A stretch of DNA of 64,000 nucleotides from Streptosporangium becharense (GTDB lineage Bacteria > Actinomycetota > Actinomycetes > Streptosporangiales > Streptosporangiaceae), in contig NZ_JACHMP010000001.1 of the NCBI RefSeq assembly GCF_014204985.1, positions 3,038,001-3,102,000 of the forward strand, given 5' to 3'. A model generated the notes under the pieces. It was given only the letters and a program-made list of their open reading frames with translations, ran no database searches and was not told the origin of the DNA. The position numbers and the translations under genes were made by a program. Positions within the stretch are counted from its first letter, which is position 1; each line of letters begins with the position of its first letter. Below, in pieces: positions 3,813 to 19,901 of this stretch.

Positions 3813-5708
<1,896 letters not shown>

Positions 5709-6731
5709 ATGCGTACTGACACACCCCCGCCGCACGACCCGCTGGAGACCCTGGGTCTCACCCCCGCCCAGACAGCGCTCTACAACGCGGTGCTGCGCCT
5801 GCACAGAGCCACCTGCGCGGAGCTCGCCGAGGCCACCGACCGCTCACCGGAACCGCTCGGCCGTGAGCTGGCCGCCCTGGTCAGGCTGGGCGTGGTCGAC
5901 GAACAGGGCGGTGAGTATCTGGCCCGCCACCCCGCCGCCGCCCTCGGCCGCCTGATCGCCGACCGGCTCGACCGGCTGGCCGCGGAGAGCCGCAGGATCG
6001 ACACCGTCCTCGGGTCGATCCGCAGCCTCATCCACCAGTACGACGCCGGGCTCGACCACCAGAGCGGCGACTTCGCGGTGGACCTGGTCAGCGGGGCCGA
6101 CGAGCTGTACGAGAGCGTGATCGGCATGGCGGTGCAGGCGCCGCCGCTGGAGCTGCTGTACACCGTCCCGGACAAGCGGACGATGAGCGACTTCGCCCAC
6201 CGGTACGCCGACCAGTGGATCGGGGCCCAGCGGGCCGGCCTGCTCTCCTGCCGGGTCGTCGTCGCGGTCCGCACGCTGGAGATCCCCGGCGTGCGCGACA
6301 AGCTCGACCGGTTCTCCCTGGCGGGGGCGGAGATCCGCACCCTCGGCACGGTGCCGAGCTGGTTCCTGGTCGCGGGCTCCGGCGCCGCGGGCATGCCCGC
6401 CCAGTGGGGCGGCACGCTGCCGGAGAACGCCTACCACTTCCACCTGGTCCGGGCCGTCATCGTGGTGGCCGCGCTCCGTTCCCTCTTCGAGGAGCTGTGG
6501 GCCCGCGCGGCCCCGCTGCCGTGGACGCACCGCGACGACGGCGTGGTGCGGGTTCTCCGGCTGGCCGGGCAGGGGATGCCCGATGAGATGATCGCCCGCC
6601 AGCTCGGGATCTCGGTCCGGACGGTGCGCGCTCGGTTCGCCGACGCCATGGCCGAGCTGGGCGTGCAGACCCGGTTCCAGGCGGGCGTGGAGGCGGCCCG
6701 GCGTGGCTGGCTCTCCCGGGACGCGCCGTGA
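5709..6731 (+). CDS. TrmB/LuxR-type helix-turn-helix transcriptional regulator
   Basis: A 340-residue two-domain regulator. The start is placed at MRTDTPPPHDPLETLGL, with AGGAG 10 nt upstream. Residues about 15-75 resemble a TrmB-type winged helix (LTPAQTALYNAVLRL, then an AELAEATD helix). The middle (about 95-265) resembles the effector/phospholipase-D-like part of this group of actinobacterial regulators. The C-terminus carries a LuxR/GerE helix-turn-helix (MIARQLGISVRTVRARF). Such genes are common orphan regulators in actinomycetes; the ligand and target are unknown. It stands alone, divergent from guaB. Confidence 0.8.
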   Translation: MRTDTPPPHDPLETLGLTPAQTALYNAVLRLHRATCAELAEATDRSPEPLGRELAALVRLGVVDEQGGEYLARHPAAALGRLIADRLDRLAAESRRIDTVLGSIRSLIHQYDAGLDHQSGDFAVDLVSGADELYESVIGMAVQAPPLELLYTVPDKRTMSDFAHRYADQWIGAQRAGLLSCRVVVAVRTLEIPGVRDKLDRFSLAGAEIRTLGTVPSWFLVAGSGAAGMPAQWGGTLPENAYHFHLVRAVIVVAALRSLFEELWARAAPLPWTHRDDGVVRVLRLAGQGMPDEMIARQLGISVRTVRARFADAMAELGVQTRFQAGVEAARRGWLSRDAP

Positions 6732-15676: not shown

Positions 15677-16124
15677 GGAGATCCTTCTTCATCATGATCG
15701 CGTCGGTGCCGTCTTCGTAGTAGCGGCGGCGGACGCCGATCCGCTCGAACCCGAACCTGTCGTACACCGCCTGCGCGCCGGGGTTGTCGGCGCGCACCTC
15801 CAGGAAGACCGAGACCGCACCGCGCCGCGCGGCCTCGGTGAGGAGGTCGGTGAGCATGGCGCCGCCGATCCCGGCCCGCCGCCGGGAGGACAGGACGGCG
15901 ATCGTCTGCACGTCGGCCTGGTCGCCCGCCGCCGCGAGACCGGCGTAGCCGACGATCTCGCCGTCGACCAGGGCCACCACGTAGTGACGGGTTCTCGGCT
16001 GGTCCGCCAGCTCGCCGCGGAGCATGCCCTCGCTCCACGCGTCGGAGGGAAAGGTCTCGCGCTCGATCTCCATCACCGCGGGCAGGTCGTCCACGGTCAT
16101 CTGTCGCAGCACGGCACCGCTCAT
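15669..16124 (-). CDS. rimI: Ribosomal protein S18 alanine N-acetyltransferase RimI
   Basis: A 151-residue GNAT acetyltransferase. The acetyl-CoA pyrophosphate loop is [13 protein letters not shown], and the C-terminal [23 protein letters not shown] is typical of RimI. It acetylates protein N-termini; S18 is the classical substrate, but actinobacterial RimI may be broader. Start overlaps the tsaB stop (ATGA), and its end overlaps tsaD by 8 nt, so translation of the three genes is coupled. Confidence 0.95.
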
Positions 16125-16804
16125 GCGGACACCTTCTTGGGTGCCCCCGGCACCTGGGCGTCGGGGCGGCGCAGGTAGATCGGGCGGGGCAGGCTCAGCA
16201 CGGGGTGCGTGCCGTTCTCCACGACCTCCCGGACGTCCGGCGCGCCGAGCTGCTCGGCGGCCAGCGCCGCCAGCGCCCCGGCGTACGGATACTCACCGGC
16301 GTCGAGCAGGCGGGAGGCGCCGAGGACCTCGGCGTACATCCGGGCGCCCGCGCCGACCAGGGGGAGCTCCCCCGGCAGGTCGTGCGGCCGGTCGACCGCG
16401 GGACCGGACAGACGGGTGCGCATGTCCTGGTAGTGCCCCCAGAACACCTCCTTGCGCCGGGCGTCGGTGGCCACCAGGAACGGCTCCGCCAGCCCGCTGC
16501 CGTAGGCGAGCGCGTCGAGCGTGCACACCCCGTACGCCGGGACGCCCAGCGAGGTCGCGAGGGCCTGGGCGGTGACCAGGCCGACCCGCAGCCCCGTGTA
16601 GGGGCCGGGGCCCGCTCCGGCGACGACGGCCGTGACGTCGCCGAGCGACGCCCCGGCCTCGCGCAGGACCGTCTCGATCGTGGGAACCAGCAGCTCACCG
16701 TGGCGGCGCGCGTCTATCGTCGTCGACTCGGCGAGGACCCTCGCACCGTCGTGCAACGCTGCGGTGACGGCGGGGGTCGCGGTGTCAAAGGCCAGGACCA
16801 GCAC
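16121..16804 (-). CDS. tsaB: tRNA t6A biosynthesis protein TsaB
   Basis: A 227-residue ASKHA-fold partner of TsaD (VLVLAFDTATPAVTAALHDG; GAGPGPYTGLRVGL). It lacks catalytic residues and dimerises with TsaD as a scaffold with TsaE. Starts with GTG, no Shine-Dalgarno sequence, and has a TAGGCT hexamer 8 nt upstream, so it probably heads a leaderless tsaB-rimI-tsaD transcript separate from tsaE. Confidence 0.95.
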   Translation of the reverse strand: MLVLAFDTATPAVTAALHDGARVLAESTTIDARRHGELLVPTIETVLREAGASLGDVTAVVAGAGPGPYTGLRVGLVTAQALATSLGVPAYGVCTLDALAYGSGLAEPFLVATDARRKEVFWGHYQDMRTRLSGPAVDRPHDLPGELPLVGAGARMYAEVLGASRLLDAGEYPYAGALAALAAEQLGAPDVREVVENGTHPVLSLPRPIYLRRPDAQVPGAPKKVSA

Positions 16805-16812
16805 GAACAGTT

Positions 16813-16818
16813 AGCCTA
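16813..16818 (-). promoter_or_regulatory. Probable leaderless -10 (TAGGCT) of tsaB
   Basis: On the minus strand TAGGCT ends 8 nt before the GTG start. The same hexamer at nearly the same distance precedes coaA and the large proline-rich gene. Confidence 0.5.
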
Positions 16819-16867
16819 GTCCGTCCCGCGAGGGCTTTAGGGCGATCACCGCACGACAGCGGCCGGC

Positions 16868-17422
16868 TCAGGCCCCGACGAGGGTGGCGTAGACGATGAA
16901 GTTGTCGCGGTACTCGCCGTCGTCCCGGTCGAACTCACCGCCGCAGGTGATCAGCCGCAGGCCGTCCTCCAGGTAGACCTTGTCGGCGGGGAAGCGCGTC
17001 TTGCTGGTCTGCTCGACGGAGTCGACCCGGTAGTGGGCCACCTTGCCGTCGCTGCGCACGACCTTGATGGCCTGCCCCTCCTTGATCTCCTTGAGCCGGT
17101 AGAAGACCGCCGGAGCGGTCTTGGTGTCGACATGCCCGAGGATCACCGCGGGTCCCTCGTCCCCGGGGACGACGCTGTCCTCGACCCAGCCCGCCGTGCC
17201 GGGCTTCTCATACGGCGGCAGGTCGATCCGGCCGCCCGTCACGCCCAGCTTCATCAGGGGCGCCTTGATGCCTAGGGACGGGATGTCGATGCGCTCGGGC
17301 ACGACCGAGACACGGGCGGGAGCGTCCTCCTCCCCCCCGCCCCTGGTGCCGAACGCCACCATGACCGCGCCGGTGAGGGCCCCGGCCAGGACGACCCTGG
17401 ACCAGCGGGTGGAACCTGCCAT
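16868..17422 (-). CDS. Class F sortase
   Basis: A 184-residue secreted transpeptidase. After a short membrane anchor (about residues 9-25) comes a sortase beta-barrel with all catalytic residues: His97 in ILGHVDT, Cys160 in LITCGGEF and Arg172 in EYRDNF. Length and motifs match class F of actinobacteria. It would cleave a sorting motif and join the protein to peptidoglycan or another amine. It lies 6 nt after the lipoprotein/sorting-signal gene, its likely substrate. The pair sits between tsaE and tsaB, which are adjacent in mycobacteria. Confidence 0.92.
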   Translation of the reverse strand: MAGSTRWSRVVLAGALTGAVMVAFGTRGGGEEDAPARVSVVPERIDIPSLGIKAPLMKLGVTGGRIDLPPYEKPGTAGWVEDSVVPGDEGPAVILGHVDTKTAPAVFYRLKEIKEGQAIKVVRSDGKVAHYRVDSVEQTSKTRFPADKVYLEDGLRLITCGGEFDRDDGEYRDNFIVYATLVGA

Positions 17423-17428
17423 CGCGGC

Positions 17429-18097
17429 CTACGAGCGACGGCGACGCGCGATCACGACGCCGATGCCTCCCGCGAGGGCGACGCCGAGCAGGGCGCCCGA
17501 CGCGCCGATCGGCATGCTCCCGTCACCGGGACCGCCGGCCGCGGTGCCGCCGCCGCCCGTGTGCGGGGCCTCGGTGCTGATGATCGTCCGGGTCGGCTTG
17601 GAGGTGGGCTTGTCCGTGGGGTCGGCGGACGGCCGGGAGTCGTCCACGATCCTGAGACTGGCCTTGCCGGTGTCGTTGGTGCCCTCACAGCGGGCGTTGA
17701 CCTCGTAGACGCCGGCCGCCGTGCCGTCCGCCACGGTGGCCTGGCCGCGGACCCAGGGACGCGGGACGGGCGTGGCGGTGCCGGAGGGGGTGGGGGTGGC
17801 GGTGGCGAGGATCGGATCGAGGGTGACGGGAGTGCGGAAGATCCGGGAGGAGGCGGTGCCGCGGTGCTCCGGACCGCCCTGGGGGATCGGGCAGTTGGCT
17901 AAGACCCACACCTTCTGCCCCGCCTTGGCGCGGGCCGGCTGGAGCTGGACCTCGATGTCCTCCCGGCTGCTGCCCGTGTCGGGCGGGGCGGTCGTGGACG
18001 CGCCCGCGGGGCTGCCCGTGTTCGCCTCGGCCGTGCACCCGGCCACCCCGAAGACGGCGATGGCCCCCAGAACCGCGACATGCTTGACGCTTGGCAC
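17429..18097 (-). CDS. Secreted lipoprotein with C-terminal sorting-like signal, probable sortase substrate
   Basis: A 222-residue envelope protein. The N-terminus is a lipoprotein signal peptide with lipobox VAGC (Cys21). The mature part has a single pair of cysteines (69 and 137) in a compact beta-rich region flanked by Ser/Thr/Pro linkers. The C-terminus has an LPXTG-like APHTG at 177-181, a glycine-rich spacer, a hydrophobic segment (about 200-217) and the basic tail RRRRS. Both a lipid anchor and a sorting or membrane signal are thus present. The APHTG motif is not canonical and is separated from the hydrophobic part by about 19 residues, so sorting is inferred mainly from the adjacent sortase. 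Confidence 0.82.
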   Translation of the reverse strand: MPSVKHVAVLGAIAVFGVAGCTAEANTGSPAGASTTAPPDTGSSREDIEVQLQPARAKAGQKVWVLANCPIPQGGPEHRGTASSRIFRTPVTLDPILATATPTPSGTATPVPRPWVRGQATVADGTAAGVYEVNARCEGTNDTGKASLRIVDDSRPSADPTDKPTSKPTRTIISTEAPHTGGGGTAAGGPGDGSMPIGASGALLGVALAGGIGVVIARRRRS

Positions 18098-18190
18098 CGT
18101 CGAACTCCACTTCGCATCCCGGCCGACGACCCTCGCCCGGCACGATTTCCCGCCTGATCCCCATTAAACATGGGCAAACCCATGAGAGTC

Positions 18191-18210
18191 GATCATCAAC
18201 CCTGATGATC
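18191..18210. other. 8-bp inverted repeat between tsaE and the lipoprotein gene
   Basis: GATCATCA (18191-18198) and TGATGATC (18203-18210) flank four bases. It is A/T-rich for the region and lies 94 nt from each neighbouring gene, so an operator is as likely as a terminator. Confidence 0.4.
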
Positions 18211-18303
18211 TAGACCAATGGGGCGTAGTGCCAGCGTGACAGGATTCCTCGGCCCGCGGGGGTGAAACGAATGACACCCCCGGGAGCGATCAGTGGCCCC
18301 GGG

Positions 18304-18756
18304 TCAGGCGACGCCCGCCCAGCGCGTGCCGACGCCGCGGAGCTCGACGGTGCGCTCCTCTCCCCCGTCGCCCGGCTCGCCGCGGCCGATGGAGATCTCC
18401 AGCCGGTCGTCGGCGAGCCCCTCCACCAGCCCCTCACCCCACTCCACGACCGTCACCGACTCCTCCAGCGAGGCGTCCAGGTCGAGGTCGTCGACCTCCA
18501 GGTCGCCGCCCAGGCGGTAGGCGTCGACATGCACCAGCGCCGGGCCGTCCGCCAGCGAGGGGTGGACCCGGGCGATGACGAAGGTCGGCGAGGTGATCGG
18601 GCCGCGCACCTTGAGCCCTTCGGCGATGCCCTGGACCAGGGTGGTCTTGCCCGCCCCGAGCGGGCCCGAGAGCACCACGAGATCACCCGGGCGCAGCAGC
18701 GCGGCCAGCTCCGTGCCCAGCCCGCGCATCTCCTCCGCGGTCGCGGCGACCCTCAT
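18304..18756 (-). CDS. tsaE: tRNA t6A biosynthesis ATPase TsaE
   Basis: A 150-residue P-loop ATPase (Walker A GPLGAGKTT; HVDAYRL; VEWGEGL) that drives the TsaB-TsaD cycle in t6A synthesis. Its ATG overlaps the alpha/beta-hydrolase stop (ATGA), so it is translated from the nnr-alr-hydrolase-tsaE transcript, not with tsaB. In M. tuberculosis tsaE is adjacent to tsaB; here two envelope genes separate them. Confidence 0.95.
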   Translation of the reverse strand: MRVAATAEEMRGLGTELAALLRPGDLVVLSGPLGAGKTTLVQGIAEGLKVRGPITSPTFVIARVHPSLADGPALVHVDAYRLGGDLEVDDLDLDASLEESVTVVEWGEGLVEGLADDRLEISIGRGEPGDGGEERTVELRGVGTRWAGVA

Positions 18757-19901
18757 CGGTCCGTCTCCTCTCCGTCGGTCTCCACGTGCTTCACCCGCTC
18801 CACCGGCTCTGCGTCGGTCTCCACGCGCTCGGCCCGCTCCAGTACCTCTGCGTCGGTCTCCACGCGCTTGATCAGGTCGCGCAGCGCGTCGTTCACCGTG
18901 GCCGGCCGCTCCAGCTGGACCAGGTGCGAGCTGGCGGGCACCTCGATGAAGTGGGCCCCCGGCAGCGCCGCCGCCATCGCCCTGCTGTGCTCGACGGGGG
19001 TCAGCCAGTCCTTGTCCCCGACCATGATCGAGGTGGGTACGGGGTCCAGCACGGCGAGCGCACCCAGCTTGTCGTGCGACATCAGCGCCGGGTAGAACTC
19101 GGCGATCACCTCGAACGGGGTGGAGCGGATCATCGACTCGACGAAGTCGACGACCGTGGGGCTGACGTTCCTGGCGTCGCCGAAACCCAGGTGACGCAGG
19201 GCGAGGAAGGCCACGTCGTTGCCGACCTGACGCCCCTTGTCGACCAGGTTGCCGTTGCGCCGCAGGAGCGACACCGTGCCCGGGGTGACCTTGTGCACCG
19301 CCCTGGACAGCAGGGCGGGCAGGCCCAGGGAGATCTCGCCCAGCCTGCCGGTGGAGGTGGAGATCAGCGCGACCCCCCTGACCCGGTCACCGAACAGCTC
19401 GGGGTACCGCTCGGCCAGCGCCATGATCGTCATGCCGCCCATGGAGTGCCCGACGAGCACGCAGGGACCGGGCACCAGCGCTTCGAGCACCTCGGCCAGG
19501 TCGTCGCCGAGCCGGTCGATCGTGCAGTCTCCGGGGGTCGCCCGCGGCGAACGCCCGTGGGAGCGCTGGTCCCACAGGACGAGACTGTGGGAGTCGCCCA
19601 GGTCGCGCCGCTGGTAGTGCCAGGAGTCGAGGTTGAGGGTGTAGCCGTGGCAGAACACCACCGTCAGCGGCGCGTCCTGCCGGCCGTCCACCTCGGCGTA
19701 CAGGGACACCCCGTCGGAGGTGGTGACGGTCGTGGGGCGGCCGCGCAGCTCGCCGAACGGCTCACCGGCCTCCAGGTCGGGGCGGAGCCTGATGCGGCCG
19801 ACGGCGTACCGCTTGGCGAGCGCCGCGGCGGCCACCCCCGCGGACGCGACGCCGACCACCGCTCCCGCGATTCCGGCCCTGCGCCGTCCGGTACTGCTCA
19901 T
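18753..19901 (-). CDS. Membrane-anchored alpha/beta hydrolase
   Basis: A 382-residue hydrolase with an N-terminal hydrophobic segment (about 10-30) suggesting membrane attachment or secretion. The alpha/beta fold shows FCHGYTLNLDSW (oxyanion region), the nucleophile elbow GHSMGG, and a late acid/His pair (GDKDWLTP and SSHLVQLE). The C-terminus ends in a 13-residue repeat (RVETDAE(V/P)(L/V)ER..) nearly three times. ATG 19901 is used; a GTG at 19925 overlapping the alr stop (GTGA) is the alternative. Substrate unknown. It belongs to the nnr-alr-hydrolase-tsaE run, the same place where mycobacteria carry a hydrolase next to alr. Confidence 0.88.
   Translation of the reverse strand: MSSTGRRRAGIAGAVVGVASAGVAAAALAKRYAVGRIRLRPDLEAGEPFGELRGRPTTVTTSDGVSLYAEVDGRQDAPLTVVFCHGYTLNLDSWHYQRRDLGDSHSLVLWDQRSHGRSPRATPGDCTIDRLGDDLAEVLEALVPGPCVLVGHSMGGMTIMALAERYPELFGDRVRGVALISTSTGRLGEISLGLPALLSRAVHKVTPGTVSLLRRNGNLVDKGRQVGNDVAFLALRHLGFGDARNVSPTVVDFVESMIRSTPFEVIAEFYPALMSHDKLGALAVLDPVPTSIMVGDKDWLTPVEHSRAMAAALPGAHFIEVPASSHLVQLERPATVNDALRDLIKRVETDAEVLERAERVETDAEPVERVKHVETDGEETDR
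18756..18866 (-). repeat. 39-bp tandem repeat inside the hydrolase gene (2.8 copies)
   Basis: The string CGTCGGTCTCCACG recurs at 18773, 18812 and 18851, exact period 39. It encodes three copies of an acidic/basic 13-residue unit at the hydrolase C-terminus. The frame is kept, so the protein tail length could vary between strains. Confidence 0.85.

Follow-up and report, generated by a model that had tools for sequence, protein, structure and literature searches.

A class F sortase paired with a putative substrate that carries a lipobox and a C-terminal sorting signal in Streptosporangium becharense and its relatives

Background

Why do a class F sortase and a small protein with two apparent envelope signals sit together between tsaE and tsaB, and does the enzyme act on its neighbour? 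The pair was read in the window, which is the whole 64,000-nucleotide stretch of soil-actinomycete DNA analysed here. What class F sortases do in the cell has been described as unknown (PMC13251363). In this cassette a class F enzyme has one conserved candidate substrate, linked to it genetically, so that the signal, the chemistry and the acceptor become directly testable. If both anchors were used at once, they would make a covalent membrane-wall bond in a single-membrane bacterium.

Results and discussion

The pair and its surroundings

Both open reading frames are present on the minus strand, with 6 nt between the substrate and the sortase, and Pfam searches place them between tsaE (PF02367) and tsaB (PF00814), as the first-pass annotation of this DNA had described; a GNAT gene and tsaD lie nearby. 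The order along the minus strand is alpha/beta hydrolase, tsaE, substrate, sortase, tsaB, the GNAT (rimI-like) gene and tsaD, the name tsaB being assigned from the position of the gene beside rimI and tsaD. The features of the locus, other than the active-site codons, are the following.

18304-18756, minus strand: tsaE, upstream flank (PF02367, 115.4 bits)
17429-18097, minus strand: putative substrate of 222 aa, starting at GTG, with lipobox, Ig-like domain and C-terminal sorting signal (open reading frame and sequence)
18035-18046, minus strand: lipobox V18-A19-G20-C21 (read from the sequence)
17648-17959, minus strand: Ig-like beta-sandwich, residues about 47-150, with Cys69 and Cys137 (AlphaFold2, Foldseek and alignment)
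17543-17569, minus strand: sorting motif A177-P-H-T-G-G-G-G-T185 (alignment of 121 sequences)
17435-17500, minus strand: C-terminal hydrophobic helix, residues 200-220, and R218-R221 (AlphaFold2, with low confidence there)
16868-17422, minus strand: class F sortase, 184 aa, with an N-terminal hydrophobic segment (open reading frame; NCBIfam NF033748)
16121-16804, minus strand: tsaB, downstream flank (PF00814, 101.6 bits, residues 31-143)

A promoter of its own for tsaB, also proposed at first pass, found no support, since a crude scan of positions 16000-19000 that covered sigma-70-like sites and no other promoter type returned none. Between tsaE and the substrate gene there is a weak terminator-like hairpin (18288-18275, minus strand), of a kind expected 0.3 times in the 3-kb region scanned, which may part the transcription of these two genes.

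From its N-terminus, the substrate has a VAGC-bearing signal peptide and then an Ig-like domain between two linkers; the second linker leads to APHTGGGGT, from which a spacer runs to a hydrophobic helix and the final RRRRS. All the elements that had been pointed out earlier (VAGC at residues 18-21, APHTG at 177-181, the hydrophobic segment and the terminal RRRRS) were thus found in it. No Pfam family scored above its cut-off. A database search returned 119 matching entries, one of them the window's own protein; a Streptosporangium fragile protein is 89% identical to it. AlphaFold2 modelled the central region with a confidence of 74-97 in ten-residue blocks, apart from one block at 55. Foldseek matches to this model were weak, the best support being one match at E < 0.001 with a TM of 0.27, and many of the matching chains are titled with Ig-like domains; because the matches are weak, we call the domain Ig-like and go no further. 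Cys69 is kept in 119 and Cys137 in all of 121 aligned sequences, made up of the 119 database entries and the proteins of two further loci, L051 and L067.

Distribution and linkage of the cassette

The genera among the substrate matches include Streptosporangium, Planomonospora, Planobispora, Nonomuraea, Spongiactinospora, Sphaerisporangium, Microtetraspora, Planotetraspora and Herbidospora, all of which we take to be Streptosporangiaceae. Among 120 genomes of the family, the substrate was present in 49, the window's included, and in 25 of 68 genera. The sortase directly adjoins the substrate in all 30 lipobox loci that were read, which are the best 30 of the 49 and include the window's; two apparent overlaps between the genes come from a mechanical choice of start, and one gap measures 121 nt. 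With L051 and L067 added, the sortase lies beside the substrate in 32 of 32 loci, covering 32 of the 49 substrate genomes. The distance from the substrate to tsaE is at most 1 kb in 45 of the 49 genomes; in the others tsaE lies 3.8 kb away (two), 1.7 kb away (one) or on another contig (one).

Forty further tsaE regions of the family (L036-L075) were compared, 38 of them from the 71 genomes without a match and two with a weak match. tsaE is next to tsaB in 18 of these regions and another gene lies between them in 18; in the two weak-match regions the cassette is present, its substrate having an ordinary signal peptide, and two regions could not be judged. By eye, 17 of the 18 alternative junction genes encode single-span membrane-like proteins, and the last encodes a GNAT protein. 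DUF3558 was tried as an identity for the junction protein of the relatives and dropped, no Pfam family being found in the three of the 17 that were scanned. The word "inserted", used of the pair at first pass, therefore fits, but this comparison of junctions makes the cassette an old insertion common to a clade, at a site that accepts other genes too. Conservation and synteny likewise bear out the earlier description of a self-contained, non-LPXTG envelope cassette with dual signals.

The N-terminal lipid signal

VAGC lies within the signal peptide and satisfies the lipobox consensus, [LVI][ASTVI][GAS]C (PMC5817068). Alignment column 21 holds Cys in 108 of the 119 database entries and a gap in the other 11, whose sequences are shorter or have another start. 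All 108 have G, A or S before Cys21 and T, S or A after it, and 49 of them satisfy the full consensus, in a homologue set that leans toward the lipobox through having been gathered with a lipobox protein as query. The 7.82-Mb genome that carries the substrate gene also has genes for Lgt (PF01790, 236.5 bits) and LspA (PF01252, 109.1 bits).

The proteins of L051 and L067, encoded at the same locus, have an ordinary signal peptide with an A-x-A-type site by eye and other residues at column 21. They retain PKAGGGGTA, the helix and the adjacent sortase, and their N-side linker is nearly gone. The C-terminal signal thus does not require the lipid end. A search of 297 family genomes with the L067 protein gave strong matches to L067 itself and L051, followed by the known lipobox loci and paralogues, the N-termini of the matches being read in part. 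Judged from these sequences, the dual signals are a feature of this clade, with the C-terminal signal as their constant part.

It is also conceivable, if unlikely, that the mature protein is wall-bound only and passes through a transient lipid stage, the lipobox holding the precursor or working inefficiently. Such a stage would agree with the ordinary signal peptides of L051 and L067 and with a strict lipobox in only 49 of 108 entries. The other class F partners considered below point the same way, as none of those directly beside their sortase showed a signal-peptide lipobox by eye. A pattern search did mark residues 48-50 of L101, L106 and L111, which come after the signal peptide, and another scan marked no lipobox. 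It sits poorly with a Cys21 that is kept, with T, S or A after it, in every entry with an aligned N-terminus. It also sits poorly with an N-side linker of 20-54 residues in the lipobox entries as against 10-11 at the same columns in L051 and L067, a difference that lies mostly before the presumed cut.

Measured from anchor to domain in the 108 entries, the N-side linker is 31.0 +/- 7.3 residues long and the C-side linker 21.8 +/- 5.9, and the raw lengths of the two anticorrelate (Pearson -0.59, Spearman -0.73). The idea of a ruler, in which a fixed membrane-wall distance sets the linker lengths, was nevertheless rejected, since the anticorrelation vanishes with independent contrasts. Corrected for kinship on a FastTree domain tree, with the incomplete entry P0117 dropped and the remaining 107 rows reduced to 106 distinct domains, r was -0.005 over 105 contrasts (p 0.49 in a one-sided sign-flip test). 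The lengths therefore show no sign of a constraint imposed by two fixed ends.

In a tree of the sortases, in which the L095 branch is extreme and L113 is less than half filled, the 32 cassette sortases all fall to one side of a branch supported at 100/100. The tree puts L051 and L067 among the lipobox loci, a placement that lacks firm support, and the lipobox loci as one clade are not rejected (p-AU 0.518). The lipobox may have arisen by one gain, or by a gain followed by losses.

The C-terminal signal

In the 121 sequences, P178 is kept in 120, G181-G184 in all and T185 in 116; position 180 varies, with 77 Ala, 43 Thr and one Gly. The first-pass annotation had proposed an xPxTG motif, and had named the lack of a conserved xPxTG beside class F sortases as a finding that would speak against its reading. 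Taken to the letter, xPxTG is indeed unconserved, but a stronger signal is conserved in its place: in the alignment it reads P-x-[TA]-GGGG-T, with xPxTG as its Thr form. The canonical LPXTG pentapeptide of surface proteins is absent from the substrate, which has APHTG there. The candidate sortase recognition peptide of the substrate is APHTGGGGTAAGG. From G181 to the C-terminus there are 38-60 residues in 107 of the 108 Cys21 entries, the exception being the incomplete P0117.

These data bear on a second alternative, in which an ordinary lipoprotein keeps its C-terminal helix uncut and is membrane-held at both ends while the sortase acts elsewhere. A Methylobacterium DUF4349 protein offers a parallel, as it has a lipobox and a C-terminal helix and no sortase is named with it in the accessible part of the report (PMC10924467); the lack of a conserved strict xPxTG would also suit it. 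We nevertheless consider this distinctly unlikely, in view of a GGGG that is kept in 121 of 121 sequences although the linker lengths vary, and of a sortase that is adjacent in 32 of 32 loci, a plain membrane helix needing no such motif.

Signals beside other class F sortases

Class F sortase matches were obtained in 178 of 246 genomes of the class, 108 above the cut-off. Forty regions (L076-L115) were picked by hand, as the strongest among the matches listed together with the genome's other sortases, and 39 of these regions hold 41 class F-like sortases. Thirty-nine of the sortases are above the cut-off, and L078 and the second of L086 were included by similarity. A related C-terminal signal was found within 900 bp of 36 of the 41 with a pattern that was loosened after inspection of the data, the stricter first pattern having given 27 of 41. 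The signal is on the same strand in 30 cases and on the opposite strand only in six (L085 looks spurious). The same-strand partners combine a related signal (GADTGVG, APQTGAG, SVKTGVG) with a hydrophobic segment and a basic tail. No related signal was found by pattern for the remaining five (L078, L089, L091, L092 and L111), of which L089 carries GAPNAGGGG by eye. As controls, open reading frames with a hydrophobic segment and a basic tail at the C-terminus were scanned; the signal occurred in none of nine from 38 loci without a class F sortase, and in two of 13 lying far from the sortases within the class F loci. On this comparison, the substrate motif is one form of a non-LPXTG signal that lies beside most of the class F sortases read.

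Some other loci were recorded in passing. In L110, from another bacterial family, a protein (5055-5714, minus strand) has an ALTSC lipobox, a GVHAGEGGTA tail and a class F sortase 933 bp away; it is possibly an independent dual-signal protein. Further class F-like pairs occur in other genomes of the Streptosporangiaceae (L128-L131, L133, L134, L138, L139, L141, L142, L146 and L147), where the partners combine an ordinary signal peptide with a related tail signal. A partner of this type is also present in L132, L136 and L143, where no sortase was found in the stretch viewed.

The sortase and its active site

The enzyme matches the class F family NF033748 with 176.4 bits against a cut-off of 166, in agreement with its first assignment, and structure prediction gives an intact sortase fold with active-site His and Cys. 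Three codons are central to what follows.

17132-17134, minus strand: His97, kept in 32/32 cassette and 39/41 other class F sortases (two gaps)
16943-16945, minus strand: Cys160, kept in 32/32 cassette and 41/41 other class F sortases
16901-16903, minus strand: Asn174, at the catalytic-Arg position; Asn in 32/32 cassette and 40/41 other class F sortases

His97, Cys160 and Arg172 had been put forward as the active site. The first two are conserved as expected, but Arg172 is not, being Arg in 21 of the 32 cassette sortases and six of the 41 others. In structural alignments, the model's residue 184 ends on residue 339 of SrtE1 and on residue 206 of B. anthracis SrtA. The catalytic Arg is Arg329 in S. 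coelicolor SrtE1 and Arg196 in B. anthracis SrtA (PMC5148588), ten residues before the alignment end in both; by this range arithmetic, and if the last strand is ungapped, it corresponds to residue 174 of the model. The genome's other sortase, which is class E-like (nearest solved structure, sortase E), has Arg-LIVFG where class F has Asn-FIVYA. When it was added to the alignment in two ways, its Arg fell onto Asn174 in one and on a gap in the other. Among 74 aligned sortase rows, which include the window's sortase twice, Arg is kept in more than 90% only at positions 123 (71 rows) and 156 (68 rows), neither of which is on the catalytic-Arg strand. A search for solved relatives by sequence found none with phmmer at E 0.001 or with an alignment search at E 1e-5, and a relaxed search with E up to 5 gave 14 weak matches, mostly sortases.

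Where the canonical His-Cys-Arg arrangement has its catalytic Arg, on strand beta-8, this enzyme thus has Asn174. Going by the alignments and the model, class F sortases may use another catalytic arrangement, with Asn replacing Arg, which would run counter to the published view that His-Cys-Arg is common to all sortases (PMC13257024). In the open-licence literature, no report of a catalytic Asn in class F was found among the titles and abstract openings of the matches listed. Cutting without wall joining, in which the Asn-type sortase either cuts off the tail and leaves a plain lipoprotein or uses a non-wall amine acceptor, would accord with an Asn at the usual catalytic-Arg position, but His97 and Cys160 are kept, the predicted fold is intact and no alternative acceptor is seen in the cassette, and we hold this to be very improbable.

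A proposed membrane-to-wall tether

The conserved linkage, together with the motif, makes action of the sortase on its own neighbour well supported at the level of sequence. The mechanism that we propose builds on the genes, their signals, their conservation and pairing and the predicted fold. The pair would be a sortase and its own substrate, and before the enzyme acts the helix and the RRRR tail would hold the C-terminus of the substrate in the membrane. The class F sortase next to it would recognise P-x-[TA]-GGGG-T, Cys160 would attack the motif, probably between residue 180 and Gly181, and the enzyme would hand the new C-terminus to an amine on a wall precursor. This would yield a small Ig-like domain with two flexible linkers, a lipid anchor at one end and a peptidoglycan link at the other, the two ends possibly being held simultaneously.

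Our best explanation is therefore that the sortase joins the C-terminus of a lipoprotein to a wall precursor, giving a membrane-to-wall tether; we infer the lipidation, the cleavage and the linkage, and put the chance of the whole at slightly short of even. Several points count against this tether. The Cutibacterium acnes enzyme, the first class F sortase studied, is said to recognise LPXTG (PMC13257024), and the catalytic Arg is missing here. In Actinoplanes missouriensis, removing all four class F sortases led to no phenotypic change in the part of the report available (PMC13251363), so that any effect of the cassette may be subtle. The lipobox, strict in just 49 of 108 entries and lacking in L051 and L067, weighs on the same side. 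A wider proposal, in which a dedicated Asn-for-Arg sortase makes a clade-wide covalent tether through the P-x-[TA]-GGGG-T signal as a single-membrane counterpart of Braun's lipoprotein, is tentative and somewhat doubtful. Overall, the first-pass observation was confirmed in part and its interpretation supported in part.

Comparison with known systems

None of the titles and abstract openings listed from the open-licence literature describes a lipobox substrate for a class F sortase, and no paper there combines "GVDTG" with sortase. Two candidate precedents for dual anchoring were set aside, since the adhesin of PMC8092201 has neither lipobox nor sorting signal in the part of that report available, and the predictor of PMC2375117 is described there as giving one location per protein. 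The earlier statement that no system with both anchors has been described was all the same too strong, in view of Braun's lipoprotein, brought in from general background, and of Lmo1136 of Listeria monocytogenes. The latter is a predicted lipoprotein and LPXTG protein, on prediction only (PMC3415414).

The nearest arrangement among class F enzymes is that of Actinoplanes missouriensis, where SrtF1 and SrtF4 adjoin AMIS_11010 and AMIS_36440; like the cassette, these place a class F sortase beside a non-LPXTG protein (PMC13251363). Both partners, which the authors suggest as possible sortase substrates, share a signal peptide, a C-terminal hydrophobic segment and a basic tail with our substrate. 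Unlike it, they have a general secretion signal, with no lipobox mentioned in the accessible part of the same report.

The GVDTG sorting domain (NCBIfam NF058571, GVDTG_CTERM), the NCBIfam model for signals of this type, has the same C-terminal layout as the substrate, and 24 of 37 family members match it with E up to 0.1. The substrate itself scores 19.5, below the cut-off of 29, and differs in having P-x-[TA]-GGGG-T and a longer spacer to the helix. No protein in its genome is above this cut-off; a scan of ten related or class F partner proteins put two above it, those of L098 and L112. The NCBIfam lipo-invert family (NF058595) was dropped, as it weakly matched one of the 37 members and gave sub-cut-off matches in all 14 control genomes.

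Braun's lipoprotein, Lpp, has a lipid at its N-terminus and a peptidoglycan link at its C-terminus. It belongs to the outer membrane of diderms and is linked through a C-terminal Lys by an L,D-transpeptidase, with no sortase involved. The substrate of the cassette differs from it in ending with RRRRS after a hydrophobic helix, without a C-terminal Lys.
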